Shown piece after piece: positions 14,284 through 41,674 of a stretch of 41,674 nucleotides of DNA. The notes under the pieces were generated by a model. That model did not search any database and was not told where the DNA came from. It saw only the letters and a list, made by a program, of their open reading frames with translations. The position numbers and the translations under genes were made by a program. The stretch is from a virus. Position 1 is the stretch's first letter. Each line of letters begins with the position of its first letter. The stretch covers positions 1 to 41,674 of the IMG/VR virus record IMGVR_UViG_3300033146_002252, one strand, 5' to 3'.

Positions 14284-14312
14284 TTGACTTTTCATTTATG
14301 ATATGATATATT
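14284..14312 (+). promoter_or_regulatory. Host-type promoter before pncB
   Basis: TTGACT, a 17-bp spacer and TATATT with TGA just before it (extended -10). It starts four bases after the stop of the preceding gene. Confidence 0.65.
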
Positions 14313-14350
14313 ATATTTAACTTTGAATAACTTTAATGTGAGGTGATGAT

Positions 14351-15589
14351 GTGTGTAATTTGAACAATGAATATAATGGTGTGTTAATGTCAATATTGGA
14401 TAATGACACATATAAATTTACAATGCAACAAGTTGTGTTTCACCAGTTTCCACAAGTCGAGGTTGAATATGAATTTAAATGTAGAACTGATGGTGGAGGT
14501 ATGGTTTTAGCTGAACACCTAGATATAATTAGAGATGAAATATATAAAATGAAAGATTTAAAATTAACATATTCAGAGGAAGAATGGTTACGAACTATTC
14601 CATTTTTAAAAGATGACTATATTGATTTTTTGGATGAGTTTAGATTTAATCCTGAAAAACACGTTAAAATAATGGTTGATGATGGAGATATATTTATTAA
14701 AATCATTGGTCCCTGGGTTCAGACTATTTTATATGAGGTTCCAATTTTAGCAATTTTATCTGAAATTTCTTCTAAAACACAGCGTGTGTTTTATAAAGGT
14801 AATTGGAAAGAGCAATCTATTAAGAATTTAGATGATAAAATCAAAAAAGTTAAAGCACATAATTTAGGTTCACAGTTCAAGCTCGTAGATTTTGGAACAA
14901 GAAGACGCTCATCATCCGATAATCAAGATATGGTTGTTAGATATTGTAAAGAACAATTCAACACTTTGGGTGATGGTCAATTTATTGGAACATCTAATAT
15001 GCATTTAGCTAAAAAATATTCATTAAAACCAATAGGAACGATGGCTCACGAATATATAATGGCGTTTCAAGTATTATCTCCGATTAAACATTTTCAGGCA
15101 TCTGCGTTAAAGGTGTGGGATGATGAATATGATGGGGATTTAGGAATAGCATTAACAGACACCATTAATATGGATTCTTTTCTTAAAGATTTTACATTGA
15201 GTAAATCAAAATCATATGATGGTTGTAGACACGATTCCGGAGACCCTTTTATATGGGGGGATAAACTAATTAAACATTATAAAAGTTATGGAATTGACCC
15301 ATTAACTAAAAGTGCAGTTTTTTCAGACGGTTTAGATTTTGATAAGGCATTAGAAATTTTAGAATATTTTAATGGTAAAATATTGGTTAGTTTTGGGATT
15401 GGAACAAATTTAACTAATGATTGTGGGGTAAATCCTATTTCTATAGTTATTAAAATGCAAAAATGTCAAGGTTATCCAGTGTGTAAAATTTCGGACACAC
15501 CTGTTAAAGCAATGTGTCAAATGGATTCATTTTTGAATTATATGAAAGATATTCACGGAATAAAAAATAAAAATTTGACATATAAATAG
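14351..15589 (+). CDS. pncB: Nicotinate phosphoribosyltransferase
   Basis: Converts nicotinate and PRPP to nicotinate mononucleotide, second step of the Preiss-Handler route. The bacterial PncB pattern is present along the whole length: LDNDTYKFTMQQVVF near the N-terminus, EYEFKCR, a GPWVQTILYEVPILA helix, VDFGTRRR ending at residue 186, GTMAHE with H233 (the phosphorylated histidine of PncB enzymes), and the RHDSGDP loop. The length of 412 is normal. It is PncB rather than NAMPT, which lacks this N-terminal pattern and is longer. The start is GTG 14351, supported by GAGGTGAT; ATG 14387 would lose conserved residues close by. Confidence 0.92.
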   Translation: MCNLNNEYNGVLMSILDNDTYKFTMQQVVFHQFPQVEVEYEFKCRTDGGGMVLAEHLDIIRDEIYKMKDLKLTYSEEEWLRTIPFLKDDYIDFLDEFRFNPEKHVKIMVDDGDIFIKIIGPWVQTILYEVPILAILSEISSKTQRVFYKGNWKEQSIKNLDDKIKKVKAHNLGSQFKLVDFGTRRRSSSDNQDMVVRYCKEQFNTLGDGQFIGTSNMHLAKKYSLKPIGTMAHEYIMAFQVLSPIKHFQASALKVWDDEYDGDLGIALTDTINMDSFLKDFTLSKSKSYDGCRHDSGDPFIWGDKLIKHYKSYGIDPLTKSAVFSDGLDFDKALEILEYFNGKILVSFGIGTNLTNDCGVNPISIVIKMQKCQGYPVCKISDTPVKAMCQMDSFLNYMKDIHGIKNKNLTYK

Positions 15590-15603
15590 AATTATGATAT
15601 ATT
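15575..15603 (+). promoter_or_regulatory. Host-type promoter before nadE
   Basis: TTGACA (15575-15580), a 17-bp spacer and TATATT (15598-15603) with TGA before it. The -35 box lies within the last codons of pncB. Confidence 0.65.
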
Positions 15604-15634
15604 ATATATGATGTTTTGATTAAAGGAGATTATA

Positions 15635-16450
15635 TTGAGGGTTTTAGATTATACTAGAGTTGAAAATTTGTTAATAGATTATATAAAATATGAATTTAAT
15701 ACTAGTGGTTTTAATAAAGCTGTTATTAATTTATCTGGTGGTTTGGATTCATCAGTAATTGCTTACTTAACAGTTAAAGCATTGGGTAATAATAATGTTA
15801 CAGGTTTATTATTACCTTATAAAGGAATTAGTTCTAAAGAATCTGTTGATGATGCTGTTAAGATTTCTGATTTACTTGGGATTAATTATATCATAAAAGA
15901 AATTAATGATATAGTAGATATTATTGAACGTGATATGTTTACTAATATTAACAATTCTAAACTTAGAAAAGGTAATGTGATGGCAAGGGTTAGAATGATG
16001 TTGGCTTTTGACTTTTCTAGTGCTAATGATGCTTTGGTTATGGGAAGTTCAATGTTAACAGAGGAGATATTAGGATATTTTACTCTTTGGGGTGACCACG
16101 CTAGTTGCATTGAACCAATGATTCAGCTATATAAAACCGAGGTTTTCAAGTTAGCAGAACATTTAAATGTTCCAATTGAAATAATAAAAAAATCACCATC
16201 CGCAGAATTATGGTTGGAGGATAATGGGGAGCTTCAAAGTGATGAACAAGAATTAGGAATATCTTATGATATCATTGATGATATTTTATATCATATAATT
16301 GATAAAAAGTGGGACGAGAACGACTTTAAACAAAATAAATATGATATGTCATCGGTTGTTGAAGTTATGAACAAAATTAATAAAATGAAGTATAAATTAG
16401 AATTACCAAAACACCCATTAAAAGATATATTAAATGTTGCTATTGTTTAA
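15635..16450 (+). CDS. nadE: NH3-dependent NAD+ synthetase
   Basis: Final step of NAD+ synthesis: amidates nicotinate adenine dinucleotide with ATP and ammonia. The pyrophosphatase P-loop S-G-G-L-D-S-S is at 34-40. The family's dimer and substrate segments follow: GNVMARVRMMLAFDFS near 112-127, then LVMGSSMLTEEILGYFTLWGD, and KSPSAELW. No glutaminase domain is present, so ammonia is the expected donor; the neighbouring nicotinamidase would release some. Length (271) is typical. The start is TTG 15635 with AAAGGAG upstream. Confidence 0.92.
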   Translation: MRVLDYTRVENLLIDYIKYEFNTSGFNKAVINLSGGLDSSVIAYLTVKALGNNNVTGLLLPYKGISSKESVDDAVKISDLLGINYIIKEINDIVDIIERDMFTNINNSKLRKGNVMARVRMMLAFDFSSANDALVMGSSMLTEEILGYFTLWGDHASCIEPMIQLYKTEVFKLAEHLNVPIEIIKKSPSAELWLEDNGELQSDEQELGISYDIIDDILYHIIDKKWDENDFKQNKYDMSSVVEVMNKINKMKYKLELPKHPLKDILNVAIV

Positions 16451-16475
16451 TATATTTAGGGTAATATTAGAGCCT

Positions 16476-16494
16476 AATCCAATTTGGATTTTTT
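16476..16494 (+). terminator. Weak hairpin terminator after nadE
   Basis: A 6-bp stem AATCCA / TGGATT with a 3-nt loop, followed by a T run to 16494. Short stem, so it may only attenuate transcription into the HU gene. Confidence 0.4.
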
Positions 16495-16517
16495 ATAACT
16501 AAGTAATGGAGATTACA

Positions 16518-16784
16518 ATGACAAAGAAAGAATTTATCAGTGCGTTGAAGGAAAAAGGAATTAGTGATGCTAAAAGTGTGTATGAAACATTTATCGAAGT
16601 CATCGTTGATGGTATTAAAGATGGTGACGATGTTGTATTGCACGGAATTGGGACTTTTAAGGTAGCAAATAAAGAAGCTAGAGTTGGTAGAAATCCTCAA
16701 ACAGGAGCAACTATTCAAATCCCAGCTAAGAAGGCGTTATCATTCAAGGTTTCAAAAACAATTAAAGATGCTATTAATAGTTGA
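16518..16784 (+). CDS. HU-family DNA-binding protein
   Basis: An 88-residue histone-like protein. The signature of HU/IHF is clear: TKKEFISALKEKG at the start, a GIGTFKV strand, then GRNPQTG near residues 57-63 and the DNA-binding arm, ending with FKVSKTIKDAIN. ATG 16518 is preferred over the in-frame ATG 16506 because GGAG lies before it and HU proteins start at this point. It stands alone between a weak terminator and a strong one. It may bend or compact phage DNA, or act at replication or recombination sites; which one is not visible. Confidence 0.92.
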   Translation: MTKKEFISALKEKGISDAKSVYETFIEVIVDGIKDGDDVVLHGIGTFKVANKEARVGRNPQTGATIQIPAKKALSFKVSKTIKDAINS

Positions 16785-16801
16785 TTTAATTTCTAATTTT
16801 A

Positions 16802-16832
16802 AAAAGAGGTGGGTCAATAACCCACCTCTTTT
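16802..16832 (+). terminator. Strong hairpin terminator after the HU gene
   Basis: A 13-bp perfect stem (AAAAGAGGTGGGT at 16802-16814, ACCCACCTCTTTT at 16820-16832) with a 5-nt loop and T-rich tail. The flanking A and T runs make it work in both directions on paper. Confidence 0.85.
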
Positions 16833-16850
16833 ATTATTTGGGGGTTGGTT

Positions 16851-17918
16851 TTGTTAAATATACAACAAGGTGTTAAAATAACTGATATTTTAAAATACAG
16901 TGATAATGATTGGTGTACAGCTATTAAACAATCTTATGAATCGAAAATAGCAAAAGTCGATTTTAAATGTGATATAAATACCCCAGAGGGCGTGATGGTT
17001 GCTGATGTTGGTGATTATATCGTTGTAGATGTTGAGGGTAATCAATATATCATTAAAAGTGACCTTATGGAGTATAATTATAGTGATTTAACTTTGGATG
17101 TTGATTCTTTTGTTATAGATTTTAATACTAAGCCTGTTGATACCAGTTCTATTGTATTTTATACAGGGGTTAGAGTTCCATCCATTGTTAGATATGCTGT
17201 TATCAATGATGATTTCAATATAATCCAACAAAATGATTGTATGTATGGTGAGAAAAATGACATTCTAATAGAAACAGATAAAAATGGAAAACCATTTTAT
17301 TATAGAATATATCCTAAAATATTCAATATGACTTATAATATAATAAAATATGCTGTTTATTTGGGTAGATTTTCACCTATACATAAGGGACATCAAAAAG
17401 TAATATCGAAAATGGTGTCAAAATTTGGATATAAGAGCAGTTTATTGTTGATTGGGAGTAGTGTATCAAAATTAGGTAATCGTTTATTCTACACCTATTT
17501 ACAGCGTAAAAATATGATAAAAAAGTTATACCCTAAGATTACAGTTGTTGGGTTACCTGATTATAAAGATGTTTACCCTGGTGATTTAGATTTTACACAA
17601 TGGCATTCTAATCTTTGGGATATTATAAATTTAAGATTTCCAACAGCAAATATTCAAAATACAGTATTTATTGGTGGTGCCTTGAATGATGTTTATTTTT
17701 TTAAAGATTCAGGATATAATGTTGTAATTATGGATAGATATGATGTTGATAAGATGTCAGCAACAGAGGTTAGACAACGGCTTGTGTTAGATGAATATGG
17801 ATTAAATGCAGATTTAAATATTAGAAGTCTAATAGAATTGTGTGATGAAGATATTATAAAAGATATAAAAAAATATTATAATGACAATTTAAATTTGATA
17901 TATTCTGATGAATTATAA
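16851..17918 (+). CDS. NMN/NaMN adenylyltransferase-like protein with extra N-terminal domain
   Basis: The C-terminal half is a nucleotidyltransferase of the NadM/NadR-type: AVYLGRFSPIHKGH with the (H/T)xGH motif ending at about residue 181, and MSATEVRQRL near 302-311, the ISxTxxR equivalent. The likely reaction is adenylation of nicotinate or nicotinamide mononucleotide, the third salvage step. The first 160 residues are separate, with a VGDYIVVDVEGNQYIIKSD segment that looks like a small beta domain found next to nucleotide enzymes; I cannot name it. TTG 16851 fits the GGGGG ribosome site better than TTG 16845. Substrate preference cannot be read from sequence. Confidence 0.8.
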   Translation: MLNIQQGVKITDILKYSDNDWCTAIKQSYESKIAKVDFKCDINTPEGVMVADVGDYIVVDVEGNQYIIKSDLMEYNYSDLTLDVDSFVIDFNTKPVDTSSIVFYTGVRVPSIVRYAVINDDFNIIQQNDCMYGEKNDILIETDKNGKPFYYRIYPKIFNMTYNIIKYAVYLGRFSPIHKGHQKVISKMVSKFGYKSSLLLIGSSVSKLGNRLFYTYLQRKNMIKKLYPKITVVGLPDYKDVYPGDLDFTQWHSNLWDIINLRFPTANIQNTVFIGGALNDVYFFKDSGYNVVIMDRYDVDKMSATEVRQRLVLDEYGLNADLNIRSLIELCDEDIIKDIKKYYNDNLNLIYSDEL

Positions 17919-26163: not shown

Positions 26164-27000
26164 ATGAGAGGTATCAAACCAGTTATAAAAACTAACAAAA
26201 GAGGAACGTTCATTGTTAAAAATTCAAGAAGTTTAGATTCTGAGAAATATATTATAGGTGAAATATATGAATCAAATAAAAATGAATATAAATTTTATAA
26301 ATATGATGATTTCCCATTTGCTTATGATGAGTTTAAGGTTGGAGATTCTCAAACTGTTTATTTAGAAGTTGAAGTAGACGATGTTAATATTACTGATTAT
26401 AATTATTATTATAAAAGTAATAATATGAAAATAATTAGAAAAATTCCTAAAAAAGAGTGGAAAAAATGGATTAAATATGATGGTAATAATTCAAATATTG
26501 ATAATGTTGGTTATCAAAATTCAGGGAGTTCAAATTTCGGAGATAAAAATTCTGGAAATAATAATTTAGGATATTATAATTCAGGAAATTTTAACGTAGG
26601 TAATTTAAATAGAGGTGATTATAACTTCGGAGATAAAAATTCTGGAAATAATAATTTTGGGGATAATAATTCAGGTGATTATAATATTGGTAATTCAAAT
26701 ATTGGCAGTTACAATAAAGGACATTTTAATGTAGGAATGTTTAATGATGTTAATGGGCTTGATAATGGGTTTTTACTGTTCAATAAACCTTTTGATGAAG
26801 ATATGTGGGAATGTGTGTTATTACCTGGGTTTATTACTTCCAAATTTAATCCTAAAATATCTTATACCCAAAATTGGATGAATATATATAACAAGCTTTT
26901 AAAGTCTCCAGATTGTGATTATCAAATATCATTATTAAAAAATATTCCCAATTTTAATAGTTTGATATTTCAAAATATAACAGGTTTAAAAATATTTTAA
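26164..27000 (+). CDS. Pentapeptide-repeat protein (N-x-G-x-x type)
   Basis: A 278-residue protein with about 16 pentads at residues 110-195, each with Asn at one position and Gly two later (NSGNNNLGYYNSGNFNVG style). This is the N-x-G-x-x class best known from mycobacterial PPE proteins, not the A(D/N)LxN class of Qnr/MfpA. A 100-residue N-terminal domain and an 80-residue C-terminal domain flank the repeats; neither is recognised. The repeat region is the kind of rod that could mimic DNA or form a scaffold. It has its own promoter and AAGAGG. Confidence 0.75.
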   Translation: MRGIKPVIKTNKRGTFIVKNSRSLDSEKYIIGEIYESNKNEYKFYKYDDFPFAYDEFKVGDSQTVYLEVEVDDVNITDYNYYYKSNNMKIIRKIPKKEWKKWIKYDGNNSNIDNVGYQNSGSSNFGDKNSGNNNLGYYNSGNFNVGNLNRGDYNFGDKNSGNNNFGDNNSGDYNIGNSNIGSYNKGHFNVGMFNDVNGLDNGFLLFNKPFDEDMWECVLLPGFITSKFNPKISYTQNWMNIYNKLLKSPDCDYQISLLKNIPNFNSLIFQNITGLKIF

Positions 27001-29231: not shown

Positions 29232-29268
29232 ATGTTCGCTTTAGTAATGTAATTATAGGTTGTTGATT

Positions 29269-29751
29269 ATGAAAAAATTCATATTATTATTGGTTGTTGT
29301 GTTATATTGTACGTCACTTTTCGCTTGGAAAAGACACGCCAAATTGATTTATTCGTATTTTGAAAAAACAGAGTATCATAATGTTGCTGATGTTATTACT
29401 GCAATGTCTATACTCGAAACTGGTTGGTATAAATCAAAAAATCACATATGTCGAAATAATATGTTCTCTATTAAAACTATCATTAAAAAAAATTGGACTG
29501 ATTGTAATAATAATCCTTGTAATAAGCCAATTTGTAAAATGCATCATTTCAAAACATTAAAACAGGGATATAAACACGTGTTAGAACACTTTAGACAAAA
29601 ACATTTTAGCACTAATAGAAATAAATTTTTAACTGAACTTACTACTAAACGTTATGCACAGGATAAACAGTATCAAGATAAGTTGAAATGGATAATTAGA
29701 GTTAAATTAAAAAATATAATATTTCAAAATAAAAATAGGTTGGCAAAATGA
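29269..29751 (+). CDS. Exported glucosaminidase-type lysozyme
   Basis: Probable peptidoglycan hydrolase of the endo-beta-N-acetylglucosaminidase family (Bax/FlgJ type). A signal peptide is clear: MKK, hydrophobic core FILLLVVVLY, then CTSLFA with cleavage likely after A19. The active-site Glu is E50 in AMSILETGW. NNMFSIK, a Cys-rich insert (CNNNPCNKPIC) and RYAQDKQYQDKLKW follow the family order. At about 140 mature residues it is compact. ATG 29269 is preferred; TTG 29260 would place residues before the signal. Its stop overlaps the next ATG as ATGA, coupling it to a WG protein. Confidence 0.75.
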   Translation: MKKFILLLVVVLYCTSLFAWKRHAKLIYSYFEKTEYHNVADVITAMSILETGWYKSKNHICRNNMFSIKTIIKKNWTDCNNNPCNKPICKMHHFKTLKQGYKHVLEHFRQKHFSTNRNKFLTELTTKRYAQDKQYQDKLKWIIRVKLKNIIFQNKNRLAK

Positions 29752-30650
29752 TAATTATAAATTTTAATCAAATATATAAAAATAGATATTATTATAATAA
29801 AATGATTAAAGAATCCAATGCTTGTGTTGATGAATATAAAAATCTTATTAAGGCTACTAATGCAAATAATAAAGAAAAATATATCCAAATTATTCAAAAT
29901 AATTTCGAATGGTTTAATGATAATATTATTAATAAATTCTATGTCTGTTATGATTTTAAAAATGGTTTCGCTAGAGTTCAACAAAATGGTAAATGGGGTT
30001 ATCTCAAATCTGATGGAACTTTCCTCACTGATATTATATACGATGTCTGTTATGATTTCAAAAATGGTTTCGCTAGAGTTCAACAAAATGGTAAATATGG
30101 ATTTATTAACCTTGATGGGGTTAATATTACTGGATATATTTATAATGATTGCTTCGACTTCAAAAATGGGTTCGCTAAGGTTCAACAAAATGGCAAATAT
30201 GGTTATATCAAATCTGACGGAACTTTCCTCACTGATATTATATACGATGATTGTTCTGATTTTAAATCTGATTTAGCTAAGGTTCAACAAAATGATAAAT
30301 GGGGTTATATCAAATCTGATGGAACTTTCCTCACTGATATGATATATGATGTCTGTTATGATTTCATATCTGATTTCGCTAAGGTCAAAATCGATGATAA
30401 ATATGGTTATCTCAAATCTGATGGAACTTCGCTCACCGAGTGTGTGTACGATATATGTTTTAAATTTAAAAATGATTTCGCTAGGGTTCAACAAAATGAT
30501 AAATGGGGTTATCTCAAATCTGATGGTACGATGCTCACTGATTATATATTCTCGGCTTGTTTAGATTTTGAAAATGATAAGGCTCTTGTTCATCTTGACA
30601 ATAAATGGGGCACAATAGACACTCAAGGAACGTTTACACCAAACCAATAA
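29748..30650 (+). CDS. WG-repeat protein 1
   Basis: A 300-residue protein: an N-terminal helical module of about 65 residues (KESNACVDEYKNLIKAT, IQIIQNNFEWFND), then seven 34-residue WG (KWG) repeats built on K-(W/Y)-G-Y-(L/I)-K-S-D-G-T. WG repeats form beta-rich, possibly binding, arrays. Coupled to the glucosaminidase gene by an ATGA overlap. The stop TAA (30648-30650) replaces a TAC kept in WG protein 2: reading on gives QNTN...QSS to a second TAA at 30696-30698, so the tail was recently cut. Function unknown. Confidence 0.85.
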   Translation: MIIINFNQIYKNRYYYNKMIKESNACVDEYKNLIKATNANNKEKYIQIIQNNFEWFNDNIINKFYVCYDFKNGFARVQQNGKWGYLKSDGTFLTDIIYDVCYDFKNGFARVQQNGKYGFINLDGVNITGYIYNDCFDFKNGFAKVQQNGKYGYIKSDGTFLTDIIYDDCSDFKSDLAKVQQNDKWGYIKSDGTFLTDMIYDVCYDFISDFAKVKIDDKYGYLKSDGTSLTECVYDICFKFKNDFARVQQNDKWGYLKSDGTMLTDYIFSACLDFENDKALVHLDNKWGTIDTQGTFTPNQ

Positions 30651-30720: not shown

Positions 30721-30749
30721 TTGACAAAACCAAAAATAAATGATATATT
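30721..30749 (+). promoter_or_regulatory. Promoter of WG gene 2
   Basis: TTGACA, 17 bp, TATATT with TGA before it. The 70 bp before it carry sequence homologous to the 3' end of WG genes. Confidence 0.65.
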
Positions 30750-30793
30750 ACTTTTACTGGGGTTAGATTGCAAACAAACAAAAGGATTTCAAA

Positions 30794-31642
30794 ATGCAAA
30801 AAGTAGATTTCAAACAAATGTTCAAAGATAAAAACAATACCAATGAACAAATCAAAAAAGCTGGTGCTTGCAAAGAGGAATATAAAAAACTCATCAAGGC
30901 ATCAAATCAAAATAATGAACAAGAATATATCAATGTCATCCAAAATAATTTCCGATGGGTTAATGAATACATAGCTCATATTTACGATTATGGTTATGAT
31001 TTCAAAAATGGATTCGCAGTAGTCAAAAATAATGGTAAATATAGTCACATCAAACAAGATGGAACCCTACTCACAAATTTCATTTATGATTATTGTTATG
31101 ATTTCAATAATGGATTAGCAGTGGTCAAACTTGATGATAAATATTGTCACATCAAAACAGATGGAACCCCACTTACAAATTTCATTTATGATTATTGTTA
31201 CAATTTCAAAAATGGATTCGCAATAGTCAAACTTGATGATAAATGGGGATATATCAAACAAGATGGAACCCCACTTACAAAATTCATTTACGATTATTGT
31301 TATGATTTTAATAATGGATTCGCAGTGGTCAAAATTGATGATAAATGGGGATATATCAAAACAGATGGAACCCTACTTACAAATTTCATTTACGATGATT
31401 GCTCTGATTTCAAAAATGGATTCGCAATAGTCAAACTTGATGACAAAGAAGGATATATCAAACAAGATGGAACCCCACTTACTCAAATCCTCTATGATAT
31501 GTGTTACAATTTCAAAAATGGATTTGCTAGAGCCAAACTTGACAATAAATGGGGCACAATAGACACTCAAGGAACGTTCACTCCAGATGAATACCAAAAC
31601 ACTAACCAACTCCATATCGTTCAAATACATCATTCCTCATAA
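30794..31642 (+). CDS. WG-repeat protein 2
   Basis: A 282-residue protein with the same N-terminal helical module (KAGACKEEYKKLIKASNQNN) and six 34-residue repeats. Three have lost the WG pair (KYSHI, KYCHI, KEGYI). The tail TFTPDEYQNTNQLH...HHSS is the sequence whose decayed copies fill the next 1.5 kb. The coding strand is unusually rich in A and C (AAACC, CCACTTAC), unlike the WG genes at 37-41 kb. AAGGA precedes the ATG. Confidence 0.85.
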   Translation: MQKVDFKQMFKDKNNTNEQIKKAGACKEEYKKLIKASNQNNEQEYINVIQNNFRWVNEYIAHIYDYGYDFKNGFAVVKNNGKYSHIKQDGTLLTNFIYDYCYDFNNGLAVVKLDDKYCHIKTDGTPLTNFIYDYCYNFKNGFAIVKLDDKWGYIKQDGTPLTKFIYDYCYDFNNGFAVVKIDDKWGYIKTDGTLLTNFIYDDCSDFKNGFAIVKLDDKEGYIKQDGTPLTQILYDMCYNFKNGFARAKLDNKWGTIDTQGTFTPDEYQNTNQLHIVQIHHSS

Positions 31643-33180
31643 GTCAATATAGCAAATACAAATCTCAACAAACTCAACAAAGCTTCAAATCAAAATGTAA
31701 TTATTGTTATTATTTTCAAAATAATATAGCCCAGGTCAAACTCATCAATATATAATCCACAATTAACGTACAAGGAACGTTCACACCAAACCAATACCAA
31801 AACACCAACCAACTCCATAACGTTCAACTACACCAATCCTCGTAAGTTAAAATAGCAAATACAAATCAAACCAAATCAAACCAAACCAAATCAATGGTCC
31901 AATGTTGAAAATGAAATCAATATATAACTCACAATTAACATACAAAGAACGTTTAAATCAAAATAACAATCAAAATAACAATCAAACTCATCAATATATA
32001 ACCCATAATTGACCTACAATGAACATTCACACCAATACAATACCAAAACACCAACCAATACCAAAACGTTCAAATACAACAATCCTTGTAAGCCAATATA
32101 GCAAATACAAATCCAATTCAAAAAAACAATTCAAAAATGAAATCCATAATAAAACAAATCCATAATAACAATCAAACTCATTTATATATAACTCACAATT
32201 AACCTACAAGAAACGTTCACACCAATTCAATACCAAAACACCAACCAATCAAATAACGTTCAAATACATCATTCATCATAAGTCAATATAGCAAATACAA
32301 ATATCAATGGTCCAATGTTAATAAAAAATAATTCAATCAAACTATCATCTAACAATCAAACTCAAAAATTAACCTACAAGAAACGTTCACACCAATTCAA
32401 TACCAAAACACCAACCAATCAAATATCGTTCAAATACATCATTCATCATAAGTCAATATAGCAAATACAAATCAAACCAAATCAATGGTCCAATGTTGAA
32501 AATGAAATCAATATATAACCCATAATTGACCTACAATGAACATTCACACTAAACCAATACCAAAACACTACCCAACTCCATATCGTTCAAATACAACAAT
32601 CCTTGTAAGCCAATATAGCAAATACAAATACAAATACAAATATCAATTGCTCAATGTTATAAAAAACAAATCCATAATAAAATAATTCAATCAAACTATC
32701 ATCTAACAATCAAACTCAAAAATTAACATACAATGAACGTTTATATCAAACTCATCAATATATAATCCACAATTAACATACAATGAACGTTTATATCAAA
32801 CCAATACCAAAACTACATATCGTTCAAATACATCAATCATCGTAAGTCAATATAGTCAATATAGCAAATACAATTATCAATGGTCCAATGTTATAAAACA
32901 ATTCAAAAAACAATTCCATAATAAAATAATTCTATGGTTTAATTCAAACTCATTTATATATAACTCACAATTAACATACAAGAAACATTTATATCAAACC
33001 AATATAATTCCACTAACCAATCAAATATCGTTCAAATACATTAATCCTCGTAAGTCAATATAGTCAATATAGCAAATACAATTATCAAATCATCAATGTA
33101 AAAAAAACAATTCAATCAAACTATCATCAATACAAATAATGAAATCTATATAAACTCATATAACTACAATTATCAATTGC
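31643..33180 (+). repeat. Array of about seven decayed WG gene copies
   Basis: No open gene here. Units of about 160-250 bp repeat: GTCAATATAGCAAATACAAAT, short N-terminal pieces, AAACTCATCAATATATAA, then GAACGTTCACACC and an AATACCAAAACACCAACC tail. Tail copies lie near 31791, 32038, 32228, 32398, 32556, 32799 and 32996. The first unit is the clearest: 31697-31760 still reads as a WG half repeat (CYYFQNNIAQVKLIN), and 31755-31790 aligns without gaps to the last WG repeat of the gene before it, with TGG GGC changed to TAA TCC. The strand is rich in A and C. Confidence 0.75.
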
Positions 33181-33850
33181 TCAATTCAACAAAAAAAACA
33201 ATTCAATGGTTTAATTCAAATATCAAACTCTTCAATGTTAAAAATAAAATCAATATCTAAACAATAAAAATAATTCACTAACCCTATACATATATCATTC
33301 AACTACAATTATCAATACCAATATCTACAACTCATAACATATATATTTGACTCTTTAAGATTATTCACACCATATTCATATGTCTAGTGGTATCATAACC
33401 CTGAATGTATATCTCATCCATTGATTCAATATTGTTTATATAAGTACTTCAATATCTATTGAAAATTTAGTACAAATCTTCTATCTTTTATTCCAATATA
33501 TTCAAGTGGTTATATCCTTGATTATATGGGTTGCTCTAAATCATCAGTGTTATCAAATACTTATATATCTTGCGTGAGTTGTGGTCTCTTTGGTTTAATA
33601 TGTAATAGTGGGTTCAGTGGGATTAACTATGTGAAATCATTGAGGATTCACCCCACTGAACCCATTTTCACCCCAATTTTCAAAAAAATAATCCCAATGA
33701 TTTCAAGTACTTACAAATCACCCAAAAAATCGAATAATTTACTAGTATAAGTATTAAGAATCGCATATAGCGAACGTAAAGGGGGTTTAATTGAACGAAC
33801 GCTAATTAGTGGGGTGTTAGTATTCGAAAACCTTAAAAATCAAATCTAGG
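33181..33850. other. Non-coding junction between relics and repeat blocks
   Basis: AT-rich DNA with no supported gene. It holds a 12-bp inverted repeat (GGGTTCAGTGGG at 33610-33621, CCCACTGAACCC at 33652-33663) with a 30-nt loop and a following TTTT, which may be a terminator or cruciform. An inverted copy of the block element (CCCAATGATTTCAAGTACTTA) lies at 33693-33713 and a partial direct copy at 33632-33644. Confidence 0.5.
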
Positions 33851-33854
33851 GCAT

Positions 33855-34010
33855 ATTCTATTGATTTTAGGGGTATATTAAGAGGGTATGGATAAGAATA
33901 ATGGTATGGGGGTGTGTATGGAATGACCCCAGAGGCATATATTTGTATGGTTGTATAATATGACCCCAGAGGTATAATTGTATAGAGGTATAATTGTATA
34001 TGAGCACATA
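33855..34010. repeat. Minisatellite patch 1 (GGTATG / GACCCCAGAGG)
   Basis: Irregular tandem copies of GGTATA(A/G)TTGTATA and TGACCCCAGAGG. Same family as the larger arrays at 35285 and 36295. Confidence 0.65.
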
Positions 34011-34026
34011 ATATGTATTGACAACT

Positions 34027-34358
34027 TTTTATCCTAGGGGAAAATAGTTGTAAAGTGGTATAAGTGGTTGAAATCATTGAGGGTGGAAAAATCAATAAAA
34101 CATAAAAACAGAGGTAAAAGCCAATAAAAAAACAGAGGTGAGAAAAGTGGAATCGTAAGTACTTGAAATCATTGGGGGTGAAAAATATAAAAAAAGGCAT
34201 CTAGAAGTCAAAATCCCCTAGGATAAAACCTGGGGTTAAACGATGTAAGTAGTTGAAATCATTGAATGTGGAAAAATTGGGATAAAATAAAAAGTAAGGA
34301 TAAAAAGAGGTAAAAAATATACACTTGTAAGTGCTTGAAATCATTGAGGGTGGAAAAA
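34027..34358. repeat. Direct-repeat block A with four 30-bp elements
   Basis: Begins with TTTTATCCTAGGGGA (34027-34041), whose inverted copy is at 34214-34228. Elements of the form TAAGTACTTGAAATCATTG + (G/A)GGGTG + AAAAA start at 34061, 34156, 34246 and 34328, spaced 95, 90 and 82 bp. Block B at 36729-37060 is collinear with it. Confidence 0.8.
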
Positions 34359-34379
34359 CAGATAAGAAGTATTAAAAAT

Positions 34380-34500
34380 GGTATTATATTTTGGAGTAGA
34401 TATAACCCCAGTGGTATGATTGTATAGTGGTATGATATAACCCCAGTGGTATGATTGTATAGAGGTATGATATGACCCTGGAGGTATATAGGTATAAAAA
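34380..34500. repeat. Minisatellite patch 2
   Basis: About four units with GGTATGATTGTATAG and ATAACCCCAGT, next to the 3' side of block A. Confidence 0.65.
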
Positions 34501-34571
34501 CTAATACTATGTTATAGATATAATTCCAGTGAGTTCAAACAATAAGATATGATATATTAGATAAAAGGCTA

Positions 34572-35168
34572 TTAAATATCAGGTGTGAATATTTTATTAG
34601 AATTAAGGAAACCCCATTTACCATTAATTTTAACTCTAGCTATTCCGTTTTTAAAATCAGAGCAAACATCATATATGAAATTAGTAAACATATTACCGTC
34701 AGAATTAAGATAACCCCATTTATCATTAATTTTTACTGTAGCCAATTCATTAGAGAAGTCATCACAATCATCATATATAAAATCAGTAAGCATATTACCA
34801 TTGGAATTAATGAAACCCCATTTATCATTTATTTGAACAGAAGCCAACTCATTAGAGAAGTCAGAACAATAGTTATATATTAACTTAGTAAACATATTAC
34901 CATAGGAATCGATATAACCCCATTTATCATTATTTTCAACTCTAGCGAATCCATTTTTAAAATCATTACAATTATCAAATTTTTTTATGATATTTTTATT
35001 AAACCATTTGAAATTTTTTTGAATAACATTAATATATTGTTTTTCATCATTTTGAATAGAAGCATTGATTAATATATTATAATCATCAAGACCTCCACAT
35101 TTTTCACATTTAGAAATGACCTCTGTGCGATTTTCAAACATTTTTTTGAAATTGATAACATTTTTCAT
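34572..35168 (-). CDS. WG-repeat protein 3 (minus strand)
   Basis: A 198-residue protein with the family's N-terminal module (INFKKMF, then KCGGLDDYNILINAS and YINVIQKNFKWFN) and four 34-residue WG repeats (KWGYI, KWGFI, KWGYL, KWGFL). The tail is IFTPDI. In the N-terminal module, the usual AGAC is replaced by a C-x2-C pair (CEKCGG). It has its own promoter at 35211-35238 and AAAGAGG before the ATG. It lies between two minisatellite patches, opposite in direction to the other WG genes. Confidence 0.85.
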   Translation of the reverse strand: MKNVINFKKMFENRTEVISKCEKCGGLDDYNILINASIQNDEKQYINVIQKNFKWFNKNIIKKFDNCNDFKNGFARVENNDKWGYIDSYGNMFTKLIYNYCSDFSNELASVQINDKWGFINSNGNMLTDFIYDDCDDFSNELATVKINDKWGYLNSDGNMFTNFIYDVCSDFKNGIARVKINGKWGFLNSNKIFTPDI

Positions 35169-35210
35169 TTAAACTACCTCTTTATAAAATAAAAACAAAT
35201 CAACAAATAT

Positions 35211-35238
35211 ATTATAATGGATTCAAAATATTTGTCAA
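35211..35238 (-). promoter_or_regulatory. Promoter of WG gene 3
   Basis: On the minus strand: TTGACA, a 16-bp spacer and TATAAT, 43 nt before the start codon. No TG before the -10 box, unlike most others here. Confidence 0.65.
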
Positions 35239-35566: not shown

Positions 35567-35595
35567 TTGACAAGATTTAATATATATGTTATATT
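35567..35595 (+). promoter_or_regulatory. Promoter of the divergent WG-type gene
   Basis: TTGACA, 17 bp, TATATT with TGT before it, 34 nt before the start codon and directly after the minisatellite. Confidence 0.65.
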
Positions 35596-35628
35596 GGAGA
35601 GGTATTATATATCAAAGGGGTAAGAATA

Positions 35629-36222
35629 ATGAACAATGATATAATTATAGTAGAGATGGAGCGAGAAACAGGCATTGCAACATCAGACTATGTACCAGAG
35701 TATCAACCCAATGGGCTAGCGATATTTGAGAAATCAGGCAAGTATGGGATAATAGATGTGGAGGGCAAGGAGATAGTTGCACCATTGTATGATGACATAT
35801 ATGAATACAATGATGGGTATGCAATAACAGAGAAATATAACAAGTATGGGATAATAGACGTAGAGGGCAAGGAAATAGTTGCACCATTGTATGATTACAT
35901 ATATGGATATACGAATGGGTTATCAATAATAAAGTTATGGGGCAAGTATGGAGTAATAGACATAGAGGGCAAGGAGATAGTTGCACCATTGTATGATGAC
36001 ATACACATGTATCAACCCAATGGGCTAGCGATATTTGAGAAGTCTGGTAAATATGGGATAATAGACGTAGAGGGCAAGGAAGTAGTTGCACCATTGTATG
36101 AAGGTATAAATGAATATAATGATGATGGATATTGTAGAGCAATAGATAGCAGAGGTATTATATATTATCTAGACCAAAAAGGTGAAAAATACAAAGCAAC
36201 ATTCACATATCATAAAGTATAA
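35629..36222 (+). CDS. WG/KWG-repeat protein of a different subfamily
   Basis: A 197-residue protein with four repeats of the classic type K-Y-G-(I/V)-I-D-(V/I)-E-G-K-E-(I/V)-V-A-P-L-Y. It lacks the N-terminal helical module of all other WG proteins here and uses more G/C-rich codons (GAGGGCAAGGAG, GTTGCACCATTG repeated almost exactly), so it probably arrived separately. Repeat units are near identical in DNA, showing recent duplication. The N-terminal 25 residues are short and acidic. AAAGGGG precedes the ATG. Function unknown. Confidence 0.8.
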   Translation: MNNDIIIVEMERETGIATSDYVPEYQPNGLAIFEKSGKYGIIDVEGKEIVAPLYDDIYEYNDGYAITEKYNKYGIIDVEGKEIVAPLYDYIYGYTNGLSIIKLWGKYGVIDIEGKEIVAPLYDDIHMYQPNGLAIFEKSGKYGIIDVEGKEVVAPLYEGINEYNDDGYCRAIDSRGIIYYLDQKGEKYKATFTYHKV

Positions 36223-36294
36223 GTTGTATCAAAAAAATATAAAAACCAAGGGGGTCCCCTTGTATAATGTCTAATTATAAAAACAAATGATGAT

Positions 36295-36690
36295 ATATTG
36301 GTATGAATGTATGTTATAAACCTGGAGATATAATTGTATAGAGGTATATTATAATCCTGGTGGTATGATTGTATGTTATAAACCTGGAGATATAATTGTA
36401 TAGTGGTATAATATAATCCTGGTGGTATGATATAATTCCAGTGGTATATTATAACCCTGGTGATATAATTGTATAGTGGTATAATTGTATGATATAATTC
36501 CAGTGGTATGTTATAATCCCAATGGTATGATTGTATGTTATAATCCTGGTGGTATGATTGTATAGAGGTATATTATAACCCTGGTGATATAATTGTATAG
36601 TGGTATGATATAATCCCAGTGGTATGTTATAATCCCAATGGTATAATTGTATAGTGGTATAATTGTATGATGGTATGATATAAACCCAAT
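36295..36690. repeat. Minisatellite array 3, diverged variant
   Basis: Tandem units of the forms GGTATGATTGTATG, TTATAA(A/T)CCTGG and GATATAATTGTATAG. It is the same family as the 35285 array, but CCCCAG is often changed to CCTGG or TTCCAG. It ends just before block B. Upstream, 36247-36262 is a CAAGGGG / CCCCTTG palindrome with a 2-nt centre. Confidence 0.75.
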
Positions 36691-36728
36691 AATTAATATT
36701 GATTATTAACCCCCAGTGACATTTTAAC

Positions 36729-37060
36729 TTTTATCCTAGGGGAAAAAAGTTGTAAACAGGTATAAGTAGTTGAAATTATTGAGGGTGAAAAAATATAAAA
36801 AAATATAAAAATGGTATAAAATGACATCAAACGACACCAGCATAAAAACCAAAAACGTAAGTACTTGAAATCATTGGGGGTGAAAAAGCTAAAAAAAGGC
36901 ATCTAGAAGTCAAAATCCCCTAGGATAAAACCTGGGGTAAAGTGATGTAAGTACTTGAAATCATTAAATGTGGAAAAATTGGGATAAAATAAAAAGTAAG
37001 GATAAAAAGAGGTATAAAATTCACACTTGTAAGTAGTTGAAATCATTAGGGGTGAAAAAA
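36729..37060. repeat. Direct-repeat block B with four 30-bp elements
   Basis: Begins with TTTTATCCTAGGGGA (36729-36743), with its inverted copy at 36916-36930. Elements start at 36763, 36858, 36948 and 37030: spacings 95, 90 and 82 bp, exactly as in block A. The stretch around the third element (GGCATCTAGAAGTC to CCTGGGG) is almost identical to block A, while the first spacer has diverged in sequence but not in length. Confidence 0.8.
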
Positions 37061-37537
37061 ATATTTAAAATAGTATAACATTAGGTTTAAATTATCATAT
37101 TTTAGAAGTTATTTATATTGAGTTGACACATCTTCCCACCTACTCTTCAACTATATTGTATTCCCTTTGCGTGGTTTCCTCAAGTTTCTTAAATATAATA
37201 TACCACAACTTGTTAGGTTTGTCAATTTATTTCTTGAATTATTTTAAAAAAGATTATCTTGATGTATTTGCAAGAATAAAACTTAATACCATATATGCTT
37301 ATGGATTTTGATTTTGATTTTGATTTTGATTACAGTTCTGGGTTATATTGTGGATAATAGACCAAAAGGGGATATAAAAAACTAGAAGAGTAATGGAGAA
37401 GGTATGTTATAAGCATATAAATCGTTTCTAAGCAACGATAATTGAAATCTAATGTTATGGCATTCAAAAAGTTTTTTCGTTGAAATTTGACGATTTATAA
37501 AAGATTATAAAAGATTTTAAAATAATTAAAATAAAAA
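37061..37537. other. Non-coding stretch before the tandem WG family
   Basis: No supported gene. It contains a GATTTT hexamer repeated four times plus GATT (37304-37331), a short piece reading like a WG half repeat (YLDVFARIKLN, about 37257-37290) and a 10-bp inverted repeat TATAAATCGT (37416-37425) / ACGATTTATA (37490-37499). No tRNA or structured RNA recognised. Confidence 0.45.
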
Positions 37538-37566
37538 TTGACAAAGCTAATAAGTTGTGCTATAAT
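37538..37566 (+). promoter_or_regulatory. Promoter of tandem WG gene 1
   Basis: TTGACA, 17 bp, TATAAT preceded by TGC. The leader after it (CATTTGTAGTTGATTGATG, then TATGAGGTG) is nearly identical in all five tandem copies. Confidence 0.85.
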
Positions 37567-37615
37567 TCATTTGTAGTTGATTGATGTTTATAATTTTTTT
37601 TATGAGGTGGTTAAG

Positions 37616-38608
37616 ATGAAAGTAGTTAATTTTGAAAAAATGTTTATTGGTCGTGAAGATTTGGATTTGAAAATAAAACAAGCTGGAGCTTGTAAAGATG
37701 AATATAAAAAGTTAATAAAAGCAACGACAGAAGAAGACTATATATCTATAATACAAGACAATTTTAATTGGTTTAATGAAAATGTATTAAAACAATATGA
37801 TTATAGTTCTAATTTTTACGAAGGTATTGCCAGTGTTAAAAAAGATGATAAATGGGGATATATTAAATCTGATGGAACAATGCTTACAGGTTTTGAGTTT
37901 GATTATTGTTATTATTTCTATAATGGATATACCAGGGTTCAAAAAGATGACAAATGGGGATATATTAAATCTGATGGAACAATGCTTACCGAAGTTGATT
38001 TTAATGTATGTCATAATTTCTTTAATGGTCTTGCAAGGGTTAAAAAAGATGGTAAATGGGGATATCTTAAAAACGATGGAACAATGCTTACTGGATTTGA
38101 GTTTGATAAGTGTTTTGTTTTCAAAGATGGGTTCGCAATGGTTAAAAAAGATGATAAATATGGTTATATTAAATCTGATGGAACAATGCTTACTGGTTTA
38201 GAGTTTGATGAGTGTAATTATTTCTATGGAGGTTTTGCAGTTGTTAAAAAAGATGATAAATATGGGTTTATCAAACCTGATGGAACAATGTTTACTGATA
38301 TAATATATGATATTTGTTCTGATTTCTATAAAGGATATACAAGTATTAAAAAAGATGGTAAATGGGGATATCTTAAATCTGATGGAACAATGCTTACTGA
38401 TATAATATATGATGTTTGTTATAATTTCAATGGTTGTTTTGCAAGGGTTAAAAAAGATGATAAATGGGGATATCTTAAAAACGATGGAACAATGCTTACT
38501 GGATTTGATTTTGATAATTGTGAATCGTTCTATAATGGGTTTGCAAAAGTAAAAAAAGATGGCGAATGGGGTTATATCGATGAACAATGCAATTTTACAG
38601 CTGAATAA
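37616..38608 (+). CDS. Tandem WG-repeat protein 1
   Basis: A 330-residue protein, the longest of the tandem family: N-terminal helical module (MKVVNFEKMF, QAGACKDEYKKLIKATTEED, IIQDNFNWFNENVL) then eight WG units of 34 residues built on K-W-G-Y-(I/L)-K-(S/N)-D-G-T-M-L-T. Units alternate between TGFEFD and TDIIYD linkers. I chose ATG 37616, which follows GAGGTGG; the frame is open upstream only because the conserved leader lacks stops. The last unit is EWGYIDEQC, not KWG. Probably early-expressed from its own promoter. Function unknown. Confidence 0.88.
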   Translation: MKVVNFEKMFIGREDLDLKIKQAGACKDEYKKLIKATTEEDYISIIQDNFNWFNENVLKQYDYSSNFYEGIASVKKDDKWGYIKSDGTMLTGFEFDYCYYFYNGYTRVQKDDKWGYIKSDGTMLTEVDFNVCHNFFNGLARVKKDGKWGYLKNDGTMLTGFEFDKCFVFKDGFAMVKKDDKYGYIKSDGTMLTGLEFDECNYFYGGFAVVKKDDKYGFIKPDGTMFTDIIYDICSDFYKGYTSIKKDGKWGYLKSDGTMLTDIIYDVCYNFNGCFARVKKDDKWGYLKNDGTMLTGFDFDNCESFYNGFAKVKKDGEWGYIDEQCNFTAE

Positions 38609-38650
38609 AATAAATCCAATAAAATAATTCAAAAAATAAATTCAAAAAAT

Positions 38651-38679
38651 TTGACAAAGCTAATAATTTGTGCTATAAT
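38651..38679 (+). promoter_or_regulatory. Promoter of tandem WG gene 2
   Basis: TTGACA, 17 bp, TATAAT preceded by TGC; same leader as the other tandem copies. Confidence 0.85.
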
Positions 38680-38725
38680 TCATTTGTAGTTGATTGATGT
38701 TTATAATTTTTATGAGGTGTTTAAG

Positions 38726-39520
38726 ATGAAAGTAATAGATTTTGATACAATGTTTATCGAACGTGATGAGTTAAATAACAAAATAAGACAAGCTGGAGCT
38801 TGTAAAAAGGAATATAAAAAACTCATGAATGCAACAACCGAAGATGAATATATATCTATAATACAAAATAATTTTAATTGGTTTAATGAAAATGTATTAA
38901 AACAATATGATTATAGTTCTGATTTTTATGAAGGTATTGCGGTTGTTAAAAAAGATGATAAATATGGGTTTATTAAATCTGATGGAACAATGCTTACTGG
39001 TTTTGAGTTTGATTATTGTTATTATTTCTATAATAGTTTTGCAAGGGTTAAAAAAGATGACAAATGGGGTTATCTTAAACCTGATGGAACAATGCTTACA
39101 GGGTTTGATTTCGATTATTGTAATGGATTCTATAATGGATATACAAGGGTTAAAAAAGATGGTAAATATGGTTATATGAAAACTGATGGAACAATGCTTA
39201 CAGGGTTTGAGTTTGATGTATGTTATGATTTCTATGAAGGTTTTGCAATGGTTCAAAAAGATGACAAATGGGGATTTCTTAAACCAGATGGAGCAATGCT
39301 TACAGGGTTTGAGTTTGATGAATGTTCTGATTTTTATAATGGATTTGCTATTGTAGAAAAAAATGACAAATGGGGTTATCTTAAATCTGATGGAAATATG
39401 ATTACAGGTTTTGAGTTTGATTTTTGTGATTGTTCTGATTTTTATGATGGTTTTGCTACGGTAGAAAAAGATGGCAAATGGGGAAAAATCGACACACAAG
39501 GAATCTTTACAGCTGAATAA
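38726..39520 (+). CDS. Tandem WG-repeat protein 2
   Basis: A 264-residue protein with the N-terminal module (MKVIDFDTMF, QAGACKKEYKKLMNATTEDE) and six WG units (KYGFI, KWGYL, KYGYM, KWGFL, KWGYL, KWGKI). It has two fewer units than copy 1. One linker carries a two-residue insertion (DFCDCSDF). The tail KIDTQGIFTAE is shared with copies 3 and 4. Ribosome site GAGGTG. Confidence 0.88.
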   Translation: MKVIDFDTMFIERDELNNKIRQAGACKKEYKKLMNATTEDEYISIIQNNFNWFNENVLKQYDYSSDFYEGIAVVKKDDKYGFIKSDGTMLTGFEFDYCYYFYNSFARVKKDDKWGYLKPDGTMLTGFDFDYCNGFYNGYTRVKKDGKYGYMKTDGTMLTGFEFDVCYDFYEGFAMVQKDDKWGFLKPDGAMLTGFEFDECSDFYNGFAIVEKNDKWGYLKSDGNMITGFEFDFCDCSDFYDGFATVEKDGKWGKIDTQGIFTAE

Positions 39521-39537
39521 AAATAAATCCAAAAAAT

Positions 39538-39566
39538 TTGACAAAGCTAATAAGTTATGCTATAAT
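39538..39566 (+). promoter_or_regulatory. Promoter of tandem WG gene 3
   Basis: TTGACA, 17 bp, TATAAT; here ATGC replaces GTGC before the -10 box, keeping TGC. Confidence 0.85.
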
Positions 39567-39612
39567 TCATTTGTAGTTGATTGATGTTTATAATTTTTAT
39601 GAGGTGGTTATA

Positions 39613-40401
39613 ATGAAATTAGTAGATTTCAATAGAATGTTTATCGAACGTGAAGATTTGGATTTGAAAATAAAACAAGCTGGAGCTTGTATAGAGGAAT
39701 ATAAAAAGTTAATAAAAGCAACAACAGAAGAAGACTATATTCAAATAATACAAGACAATTTTAATTGGTTTAATGAAAATATATTAAAACAATATGATTA
39801 TAGTTCTGATTTTCACGAAGGTTTTGCAAGTGTTAGAACAAATGACAAATGGGGATATATTAAATCTGATGGAGCAATGCTTACCAGATTTGAGTTTGAT
39901 TATTGTTATAATTTTTATGATGGATTTGCAAGAGTTAGAAAAAATGGTAAATATGGATTTCTCAAACCTGATGGAGCAATGCTTACTGGTTTTGATTTTG
40001 ATGTATGTTCTGATTTTTACGAAGGTTTTGCAAGTGTTAGAATAAATGACAAATGGGGTTATCTTAAATCTGATGGAAATATGATTACAGGTTTTGATTT
40101 TGATGAATGTTATGATTTCTATGATGATTTAGCAAGGGTTAAAAAAGATGGTAAATGGGGTTATATCAAATCTAATGGAACAATGCTTACCAGATTTGAT
40201 TTTGATGAATGTTATTATTTCTATGATGGATTTGCCGTTGTTAAAAAAGATGATAAATATGGTTATATTAAACCTGATGGAACAATGCTTACTGATATAA
40301 TATATGATGTTTGTTCTATTTTCAAAGATGGATTTGCAAGGGTTCAAAAAAATGGTAAATGTGGAAAAATTGATAAACAAGGAAACTTTACAGCTGAATA
40401 A
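39613..40401 (+). CDS. Tandem WG-repeat protein 3
   Basis: A 262-residue protein, N-terminal module (MKLVDFNRMF, QAGACIEEYKKLIKATTEED) plus six WG units (KWGYI, KYGFL, KWGYL, KWGYI, KYGYI, KCGKI). It uses Arg-rich strands (SVRTND, RVRKNG) in place of the VKKDD of copy 1, so the exposed faces differ. The last unit lost the Trp (KCG). Ribosome site GAGGTGG, own promoter. Confidence 0.88.
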   Translation: MKLVDFNRMFIEREDLDLKIKQAGACIEEYKKLIKATTEEDYIQIIQDNFNWFNENILKQYDYSSDFHEGFASVRTNDKWGYIKSDGAMLTRFEFDYCYNFYDGFARVRKNGKYGFLKPDGAMLTGFDFDVCSDFYEGFASVRINDKWGYLKSDGNMITGFDFDECYDFYDDLARVKKDGKWGYIKSNGTMLTRFDFDECYYFYDGFAVVKKDDKYGYIKPDGTMLTDIIYDVCSIFKDGFARVQKNGKCGKIDKQGNFTAE

Positions 40402-40418
40402 AAATAAATTCAAAAAAT

Positions 40419-40447
40419 TTGACAAAACTAATAAGTTGTGCTATAAT
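40419..40447 (+). promoter_or_regulatory. Promoter of tandem WG gene 4
   Basis: TTGACA, 17 bp, TATAAT preceded by TGC; leader is two bases shorter than in copies 2 and 3. Confidence 0.85.
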
Positions 40448-40493
40448 TCATTTGTAGTTGATTGATTTATATAATTTTTATGAGGTGTATAAA

Positions 40494-41267
40494 ATGAAAG
40501 TAATAGATTTTGAAAAAATGTTTATCGAACGTGAAGAGTTAAATAAAAAAATAAAACAAGCTGGGGCTTGTAAAAAGGAATATAAAAAACTCATAAAAGC
40601 AACAACAGAAGAAGACTATATATATATTATTCAAGACAATTTTTATTGGTTTAATGAAAATATATTAAAACAATTTGATTATAGTTCTAATTTTTATGAA
40701 GGTATTGCTGTTGTTAAAAAAGATGGTAAATGGGGTTATCTCAAACCTGATGGAGCAATGCTTACCAGATTTGAGTTTGATTATTGTTATAATTTCTTTG
40801 AAGGATTCGCAAGAGTTAGAAACGATGACAAATGTGGTTATATTAAATCTGATGGAACAATGCTTACAGGATTTGATTTTGATGATTGTCTTGTTTTCAA
40901 AGATGGGTTCTCAAAAGTAAAAAAAGATGGTAAATGGGGTTATATTAAATCTGATGGAACAATGCTTACCAGATTTGAGTTTGATGAATGTTATTATTTC
41001 TATAAAGGATTTGCCGTTGTTAAAGAAGATGGTAAATATGGTTATATTAAATCTGATGGAACAATGCTTACTGATATAATATTTGATGTTTGTTCTGATT
41101 TCTATAATGGATATCCAAAGATTAAAAAAGATGGTAAATCTGATGGAACGATGCTTACAGGTTTAGAGTTTGATGATGGTTATTATTTCAATGGAGGATT
41201 TGCAAGGGTTAAAAAAAATGGTAAATGGGGTTATATTGATACTCAAGGAAATTTTACAGCTGAATAA
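40494..41267 (+). CDS. Tandem WG-repeat protein 4
   Basis: A 257-residue protein with the N-terminal module (MKVIDFEKMF, QAGACKKEYKKLIKATTEED) and six WG units, one of which has lost W-G-Y-I-K by an in-frame 15-base deletion near 41138 (it reads KKDGKSDGTML). One unit is KCG. The tail is DTQGNFTAE. Own promoter and GAGGTG ribosome site. The deletion has kept the frame, which suggests selection for an intact protein. Confidence 0.87.
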   Translation: MKVIDFEKMFIEREELNKKIKQAGACKKEYKKLIKATTEEDYIYIIQDNFYWFNENILKQFDYSSNFYEGIAVVKKDGKWGYLKPDGAMLTRFEFDYCYNFFEGFARVRNDDKCGYIKSDGTMLTGFDFDDCLVFKDGFSKVKKDGKWGYIKSDGTMLTRFEFDECYYFYKGFAVVKEDGKYGYIKSDGTMLTDIIFDVCSDFYNGYPKIKKDGKSDGTMLTGLEFDDGYYFNGGFARVKKNGKWGYIDTQGNFTAE

Positions 41268-41296
41268 AATAAATTCAAAAAAATAATTCAAAAAAT

Positions 41297-41325
41297 TTGA
41301 CAAAACTAATAAGTTGTGCTATAAT
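41297..41325 (+). promoter_or_regulatory. Promoter of tandem WG copy 5
   Basis: TTGACA, 17 bp, TATAAT preceded by TGC, as in the other tandem copies, in front of the frameshifted gene. Confidence 0.8.
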
Positions 41326-41371
41326 TCATTTGTAGTTGATTGATGTTTATAATTTTTATGAGGTGTTTAAA

Positions 41372-41674
41372 ATGAAAGTAGTAGATTTTGAAACAATGTT
41401 TATCGAACGTGAAGATTTTGATAAAAAAATAAAACAAGCTGGGGCTTGTAAAAAGGAATATAAAAAACTCATAAAACAACAACGGAAGAAGACTATATTC
41501 AAATAATACAAGACAATTTTAATTGGTTTAATGAAAATATATTAAAACAATTTGATTATTGTTCTAATTTCAATGAAGGATTTGCAATGGTTCAAAAAGA
41601 TGACAAATGTGGTTATATTAAATCTGATGGAACAATGCTTACCAGATTTGAGTTTGATGATTGTCTTGTTTTCA
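41372..41674 (+). pseudogene. Tandem WG copy 5, frameshifted and cut by the window edge
   Basis: Starts MKVVDFETMF with the family's N-terminal module, then loses one base: between 41476 and 41477 a G present in copies 1-4 is missing, changing KATTEED to KQQRKK and giving a stop at 41504-41506. In the restored frame the sequence is open and family-like to the window end (IIQDNFNWFNEN, then KCGYIKSDG). Either a true pseudogene or a base-call error. Confidence 0.8.

Follow-up and report, generated by a model that had tools for sequence, protein, structure and literature searches.

The array of five WG-repeat genes at positions 37538-41674 of the window, i.e. the whole of IMG/VR record IMGVR_UViG_3300033146_002252 (41,674 bases, linear), is a real feature that was over-interpreted at first, and its pattern is that of genes duplicated in tandem in a phage that recombines. 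What is uncommon here is that the WG family is so large, that a helical module is attached to it and that a graveyard of dead gene ends is visible. As the best explanation, held with moderate confidence, these genes would form an early, cytoplasmic and accessory family of binders, which is amplified and lost by recombination and is most likely directed at the host, in takeover or counter-defence.

As judged from its gene content, the source is a T4-like (tailed, contractile) phage, because the record encodes a UvsX-like recombinase, a gp41-type helicase, a T4-type tail tube and the anaerobic ribonucleotide reductase genes NrdD/NrdG, a placement above the level of genus or family given a record of only 41.7 kb. 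Protein searches with the core genes against the phage collection returned only matches below 60% identity, placing the phage far from all isolates, and a 25 kb megablast query from the window matched no phage. Helicase and tail tube identify one clear relative of the lineage, a 12 kb contig (L022) whose helicase is 65% identical. The record, with a GC content of 26.6%, is probably a fragment; as the window is the complete virus record, the array may extend past its end.

The WG array and its promoters

The array genes share one plan, a 66-residue N-terminal helical module followed by 34-residue WG units (PF14903), and all five copies lie on the plus strand. Copy 1 (37538-38608; promoter 37538-37566, ATG 37616) encodes 330 aa with the helical module and 8 WG units, copy 2 (38651-39520; promoter 38651-38679, ATG 38726) 264 aa with 6 units and a 2-residue insert in unit 5, copy 3 (39538-40401; promoter 39538-39566, ATG 39613) 262 aa with 6 units, and copy 4 (40419-41267; promoter 40419-40447, ATG 40494) 257 aa with 6 units, the fifth of which is shortened to 28 residues from the usual 34. 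In each of copies 1-4 the final unit, included in these counts, is a half-unit cap. Copy 5 (41297-41674; promoter 41297-41325, ATG 41372) has lost 1 nt near codon 36 when compared with its sisters, which shifts the frame, and runs off the record at 41674; the data fit an error as well as true decay. The first-pass annotation had reported five genes with module and WG units, of which four are intact, and differing unit numbers, which holds for copy 1 and for the wider family (4 to 8 units), while the remaining three intact copies are equal (6, 6 and 6).

Copies 1-4 score 213.9, 179.7, 189.5 and 159.5 bits against PF14903 (WG_beta_rep, a 35-position repeat in tandem), all far above the Pfam gathering cut-off of 25.6, and 27 of the 48 matches to this family in the record fall inside the array. 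WG repeats are widespread in bacteria; compared with the family at large, the units here are joined to the helical module and stand in a tandem phage array.

Exact TTGACA-N17-TATAAT promoters on five tandem copies, as originally described, begin at 37538, 38651, 39538, 40419 and 41297, and the common leader was likewise confirmed, since the promoter and leader segments are 90-94% identical pairwise. All five promoters carry TG before the -10 element, the ATG lies 47-50 nt downstream of the -10 element, and a ribosome site (GAGGTG) precedes it. Across the whole record, 17 sites have at least 11 of the 12 consensus bases with a spacing of 16-18 nt, and the extended -10 TG is present in 13 of the 17, against 0.55 expected from 20 Markov-1 simulations (6.95 if the TG is not required). 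The array accounts for five of these 13, and seven of the eight others lie 29-62 nt upstream of an ORF in a hand-chosen set of 51 ORFs, including non-WG genes; most genes of 26-41 kb are preceded by near-consensus sigma-70 promoters. The idea that a promoter for each copy is a special design has accordingly been given up in favour of a general style of the early region, in which strong sigma-70 promoters stand ahead of single genes or small groups, as tandem duplication of a promoter-plus-gene segment copies the promoter too. The promoters are of the early type (host sigma-70), in line with the early action first proposed, and on this ground the WG genes are predicted to be expressed early. 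The proteins would be located in the cytoplasm, because inspection of the sequences by eye, rather than with a predictor, shows no hydrophobic leader.

A scan for late promoters (TATAAATA) was set aside, as its 23 sites, some of them before other genes, are by our own estimate about the number expected by chance at 27% GC. On the minus strand, a promoter-like site TTGACA-N17-TATATT with TG (37225-37197) is not followed by any clear gene of the ORF list over a distance of 2 kb. The early region encodes a further repeat protein, of the Pentapeptide_2 type (26164-27000), with its own promoter at 26100.

Sister genes and decayed gene ends

Four further WG genes lie upstream of the array, and all nine WG ORFs match PF14903. 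Gene a (29748-30650, plus strand) encodes 300 aa with the helical module and 7 WG matches, and its start overlaps the end of a gene (29260-29751) for a Glucosaminidase-domain protein with a signal-like N-terminus and a perfect promoter at 29203. Gene b (30721-31642, plus strand) has the promoter TTGACA-N17-TATATT at 30721 and an ORF (30794-31642) of 282 aa with the helical module and 6 WG matches, while gene c (34572-35238, minus strand) has the promoter TTGACA-N16-TATAAT at 35238 and an ORF (34572-35168) of 198 aa with the helical module and 4 WG matches. The helical modules of a, b and c share 42-52% identity with that of copy 2. These are the three related genes noted earlier at 29.7-35.2 kb, to which gene d has to be added (35567-36222, plus strand; promoter at 35567; ORF 35629-36222, 197 aa, 4 WG matches), which is without the helical module. 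By their coordinates, the WG ORFs together make up about 6.6 kb, or about 8.6 kb with array spacers and remnants, rather than the "over 10 kb" first given.

Seven degenerate 3' ends of gene b, overlooked in the first-pass annotation, follow it on the plus strand (31705-31894, 31983-32135, 32173-32307, 32377-32485, 32509-32629, 32747-32861 and 32945-33103) with 68-86% identity to b. Most contain stops or frame breaks, and in the first the terminal WG half-unit is still recognisable, a stop lying close to where the tryptophan would be. Their changes relative to b are spread about evenly over the codon positions (12, 9 and 16 of 47 each in the first remnant; 13, 13 and 14 of 43 each in the third). 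These stretches may derive from earlier copies of the gene or, equally, from a repeat into which the end of gene b had been captured. As part of the best explanation, the WG genes would constitute a birth-and-death family.

About 4.3 kb nearly without ORFs (31643-34571 and 36223-37615), which seems unusual in a phage, holds GGTATGATTGTATGATATGACCCCAGTG-type arrays, the remnants of 3' ends and a direct duplication of 300 nt (34027-34326 and 36729-37028, 84%). Non-coding repeat arrays lie around genes c and d at 33.9-34.5, 35.28-35.55 and 36.28-36.68 kb.

Predicted structure, relatives and known systems

The AlphaFold2 model, computed with an alignment of seven members from the window (mean pLDDT 92.8, pTM 0.82), has five N-terminal helices followed by beta hairpins for each WG unit, the beta units being propeller-blade-like. 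The repeat-based, binder-like architecture proposed at first is supported. Foldseek and VIA-align name propellers, with TM scores of 0.20-0.41 among the 50 PDB matches listed, rmsd of about 5-11 Å over 129-233 aligned residues and a best Z of 8.4, and the matches to viral structures are of low TM, many of them propeller proteins. The WG part is read as blade-like units, which may form a closed ring or an open ribbon; the latter would suit the unit numbers of 4 to 8 within the family. By sequence, no solved structure matched below E 0.4. The helical module alone gave a modest model (pLDDT 75.5) and has no Pfam match; its best PDB match has E 2.1, with none below E 1, and it is not put forward as a new fold.

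At the sensitivity of these searches, no close relatives of the WG family came up in phage, viral or genome collections. In viral_contigs, scans with a single protein or an alignment confirmed 0 of 6, 1 of 599 (among those listed), 0 of 57 and 0 of 18 candidate stretches, and an exact match to the 27-nt promoter-leader string was absent. In genome_contigs, two scans with the same family patterns, which reach fairly close relatives only, each confirmed none of 221 candidates. By tblastn, copy 2 matched 4 phage records and copy 1 matched 26 plasmid records, none at 60% identity or more, and the WG matches listed from the collections share 23-35% identity. A profile of the helical module reached E 0.1 or better in one record of seven, that of Wolbachia phage WO, where the match is weak and partial (E 0.011). 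Clostridioides phages ES-S-0173-01 and ES-S-0107-01 likewise carry WG repeats, but the helical module was not matched in their records, and the one of the two that was inspected (L024) has a single WG ORF of 361 aa with a lipoprotein-like start, unlike the tandem array.

Other repeat proteins occur in the window and in the related phage. A DUF7487 protein (7298-9208) contains a 69-bp (23-residue) tandem repeat of the KTNLEKYGVE type, and a similar ORF adjoins the helicase in L022, where two cysteine-rich repeat proteins (L022:9253-11236) indicate that the related phage likewise has repeat families. The ribonucleotide reductase-like ORF of L022 (5020-9216) appears to contain an intein.

Annotation searches gave little on function. 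PADLOC, whose library covers defence rather than counter-defence, assigned no family to any of the eight proteins given (copies 3 and 4 not being among them), and the PHROG matches are to families of unknown function or endolysin families. An identity as PspA/PspC was rejected, as the NCBIfam matches are far below cut-off and were taken as matches of repeat composition. The literature, in the text available, names WG proteins as annotations only, without a tested function, e.g. a WG lipoprotein in Pseudomonas (PMC8855297), a WG-methyltransferase fusion associated with Wolbachia phage WO (PMC4701759) and WG as a Pfam marker in Acidovorax (PMC8767351), and the 2021 modelling of PF14903 appears in the portion available as a table row without a good structural match (PMC8078820).

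The window also contains a gene set (12294-17918) with which nicotinamide could be converted into NAD along the deamidating (Preiss-Handler) route. It comprises a nicotinamidase-like gene (13390-14028) below the NCBIfam cut-off, a nicotinate phosphoribosyltransferase (14351-15589) and an NAD synthase (15635-16450) above it, and two adenylyltransferase-like genes (12294-13298 and 16845-17918), and differs from the Adps-Namat route of NARP1, as the latter is described in the available text (PMC12774641). These salvage genes would fit an arms-race setting and have no bearing on WG function.

Divergence, selection and competing explanations

Among copies 1-4, the upstream segments differ pairwise at 5-9 of 87-90 sites, whereas the module differs at 9-18 of 66 third codon positions (14-27%) and at 8-15 of 132 first and second positions; the promoter segment has thus been kept tighter than near-neutral sites. 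The first 201 coding nucleotides are 85-93% identical pairwise among the array copies. The pN/pS ratio is 0.28-0.58 in the module and 0.28-0.88 over collinear units, and omega is 0.59 across 22 WG units. This set, also used in the other unit comparisons, omits the C-terminal half-unit of each of the four intact copies, the shortened g4.5 and all units of genes a-d. These ratios indicate that the WG units are under relaxed purifying selection, and the constraint on module and units argues that the genes are not simply drifting.

Units are also lost or gained between copies, as the unit trees and best matches pair units in shifted registers (g1.5/g3.5/g4.4, g1.4/g3.4/g4.3 and g4.2/g5.1). Non-corresponding units share exact tracts of up to 54 nt, the length of the one between 39361 and 40044, and a four-copy site-pattern test on 23 sites (9 runs vs 13.2 in shuffles, P 0.029) hints at mosaic blocks along the genes. 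Variation within the unit is concentrated at positions 3, 7, 31, 33 and 34, with some other positions invariant. A site-wise test over the 34 columns, made with a custom script on one FastTree tree, a single-tree assumption that unit exchange violates, found seven columns conserved at uncorrected p<0.1 and column 33 tending toward positive selection (p=0.096), none of the 34 being significant for positive selection after correction.

These results bear directly on the original proposal of variants built by unit exchange like binding proteins, the gain and loss of units between copies being sustained and the diversifying selection not, as no robust positive selection supports variants built for binding. 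In its strong form, with a separate host protein for each copy, this proposal draws on the clustering of variation at five positions of a unit in which others do not vary, but given the absence of any corrected positive site and the low omega it is unlikely. A dosage explanation, in which every copy has an identical role and the array does no more than increase the supply of a single early inhibitor, as tifA amplification does in T4, is served by the strong promoter on each copy and by the T4 analogue, which in the available text amplifies a promoter-plus-gene segment in tandem (PMC9391042). The array is indeed a tandem segment including the promoter, but the copies are not recent or near-identical; third-position differences of this size make their divergence old, unlike that of a fresh dosage amplification, and the proteins of copies 1, 3 and 4 share just 65-70% identity with that of copy 2 and differ in their units, whereas fresh amplifications would be identical. 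We consider this explanation improbable.

A mostly non-adaptive expansion, in which repeats make the region of 30-41.7 kb liable to duplication and the WG genes are passengers that have merely not yet been lost, is possible though doubtful: the large non-coding repeat arrays, the 300-nt duplication, the seven dead 3' ends, the broken copy 5 and the damaged unit of copy 4 all speak for it, but the module is constrained and so are the promoters relative to third positions. It is very improbable that these are virion or cell-surface proteins (decoration or fibre-like); a WG gene does stand beside what we read as fibre-like repeat ORFs in a viral contig (L021), and some WG proteins are lipoprotein-like, such as that in L024, but the promoters here are of the early type, no recognised structural gene adjoins the array and no signal-like N-terminus was seen.

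The early, host-directed binder family therefore remains the preferred explanation, because of the promoter type, the position in an accessory region, the repeat architecture, the constraint and the precedent of tandem amplification in T4-like phages; the confidently modelled fold, the decayed 3' ends and the shifted unit registers also speak for it. Against it count the old divergence of the copies, the weakness of the block-like signal along the genes, the lack of a match in the defence library and the failure of the searches to find a relative with the same family. Under this explanation, a segment of about 0.9-1.1 kb (a strong host-sigma-70 promoter, leader and gene) would have been duplicated in tandem via homologous recombination, with WG units within the genes also gained and lost; some copies would have diverged under purifying selection, and others decayed into frameshifted genes or 3' stubs. 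The N-terminal helices may serve in attachment to a common partner or in oligomer formation, while the WG ribbon may bind host proteins, most likely for takeover or counter-defence, and several related copies would provide dose and some breadth of targets. A bolder extension, unlikely on present evidence, is a library of early repeat-protein binders carried by the phage and fed by recombination, in which a common helical anchor carries WG ribbons with reshuffled unit number and exposed residues, each copy is separately expressed and the dead 3' ends are waste.

According to the available text of the reports, counter-defence genes are amplified in tandem with an early promoter in T4 (dmd-tifA; PMC9391042), and SegB drives tandem amplification in T6 (PMC13096335). 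The present array resembles both in having tandem promoter-plus-gene copies in a T4-like phage, but those are laboratory-arisen copies of known counter-defence genes, whereas this one is natural and diverged. The array and its graveyard would be a natural counterpart of the laboratory-evolved tandem amplification of counter-defence genes, and a phage with several constrained, promoter-bearing WG copies in its early region offers a promising way to identify the binding partners of WG proteins.
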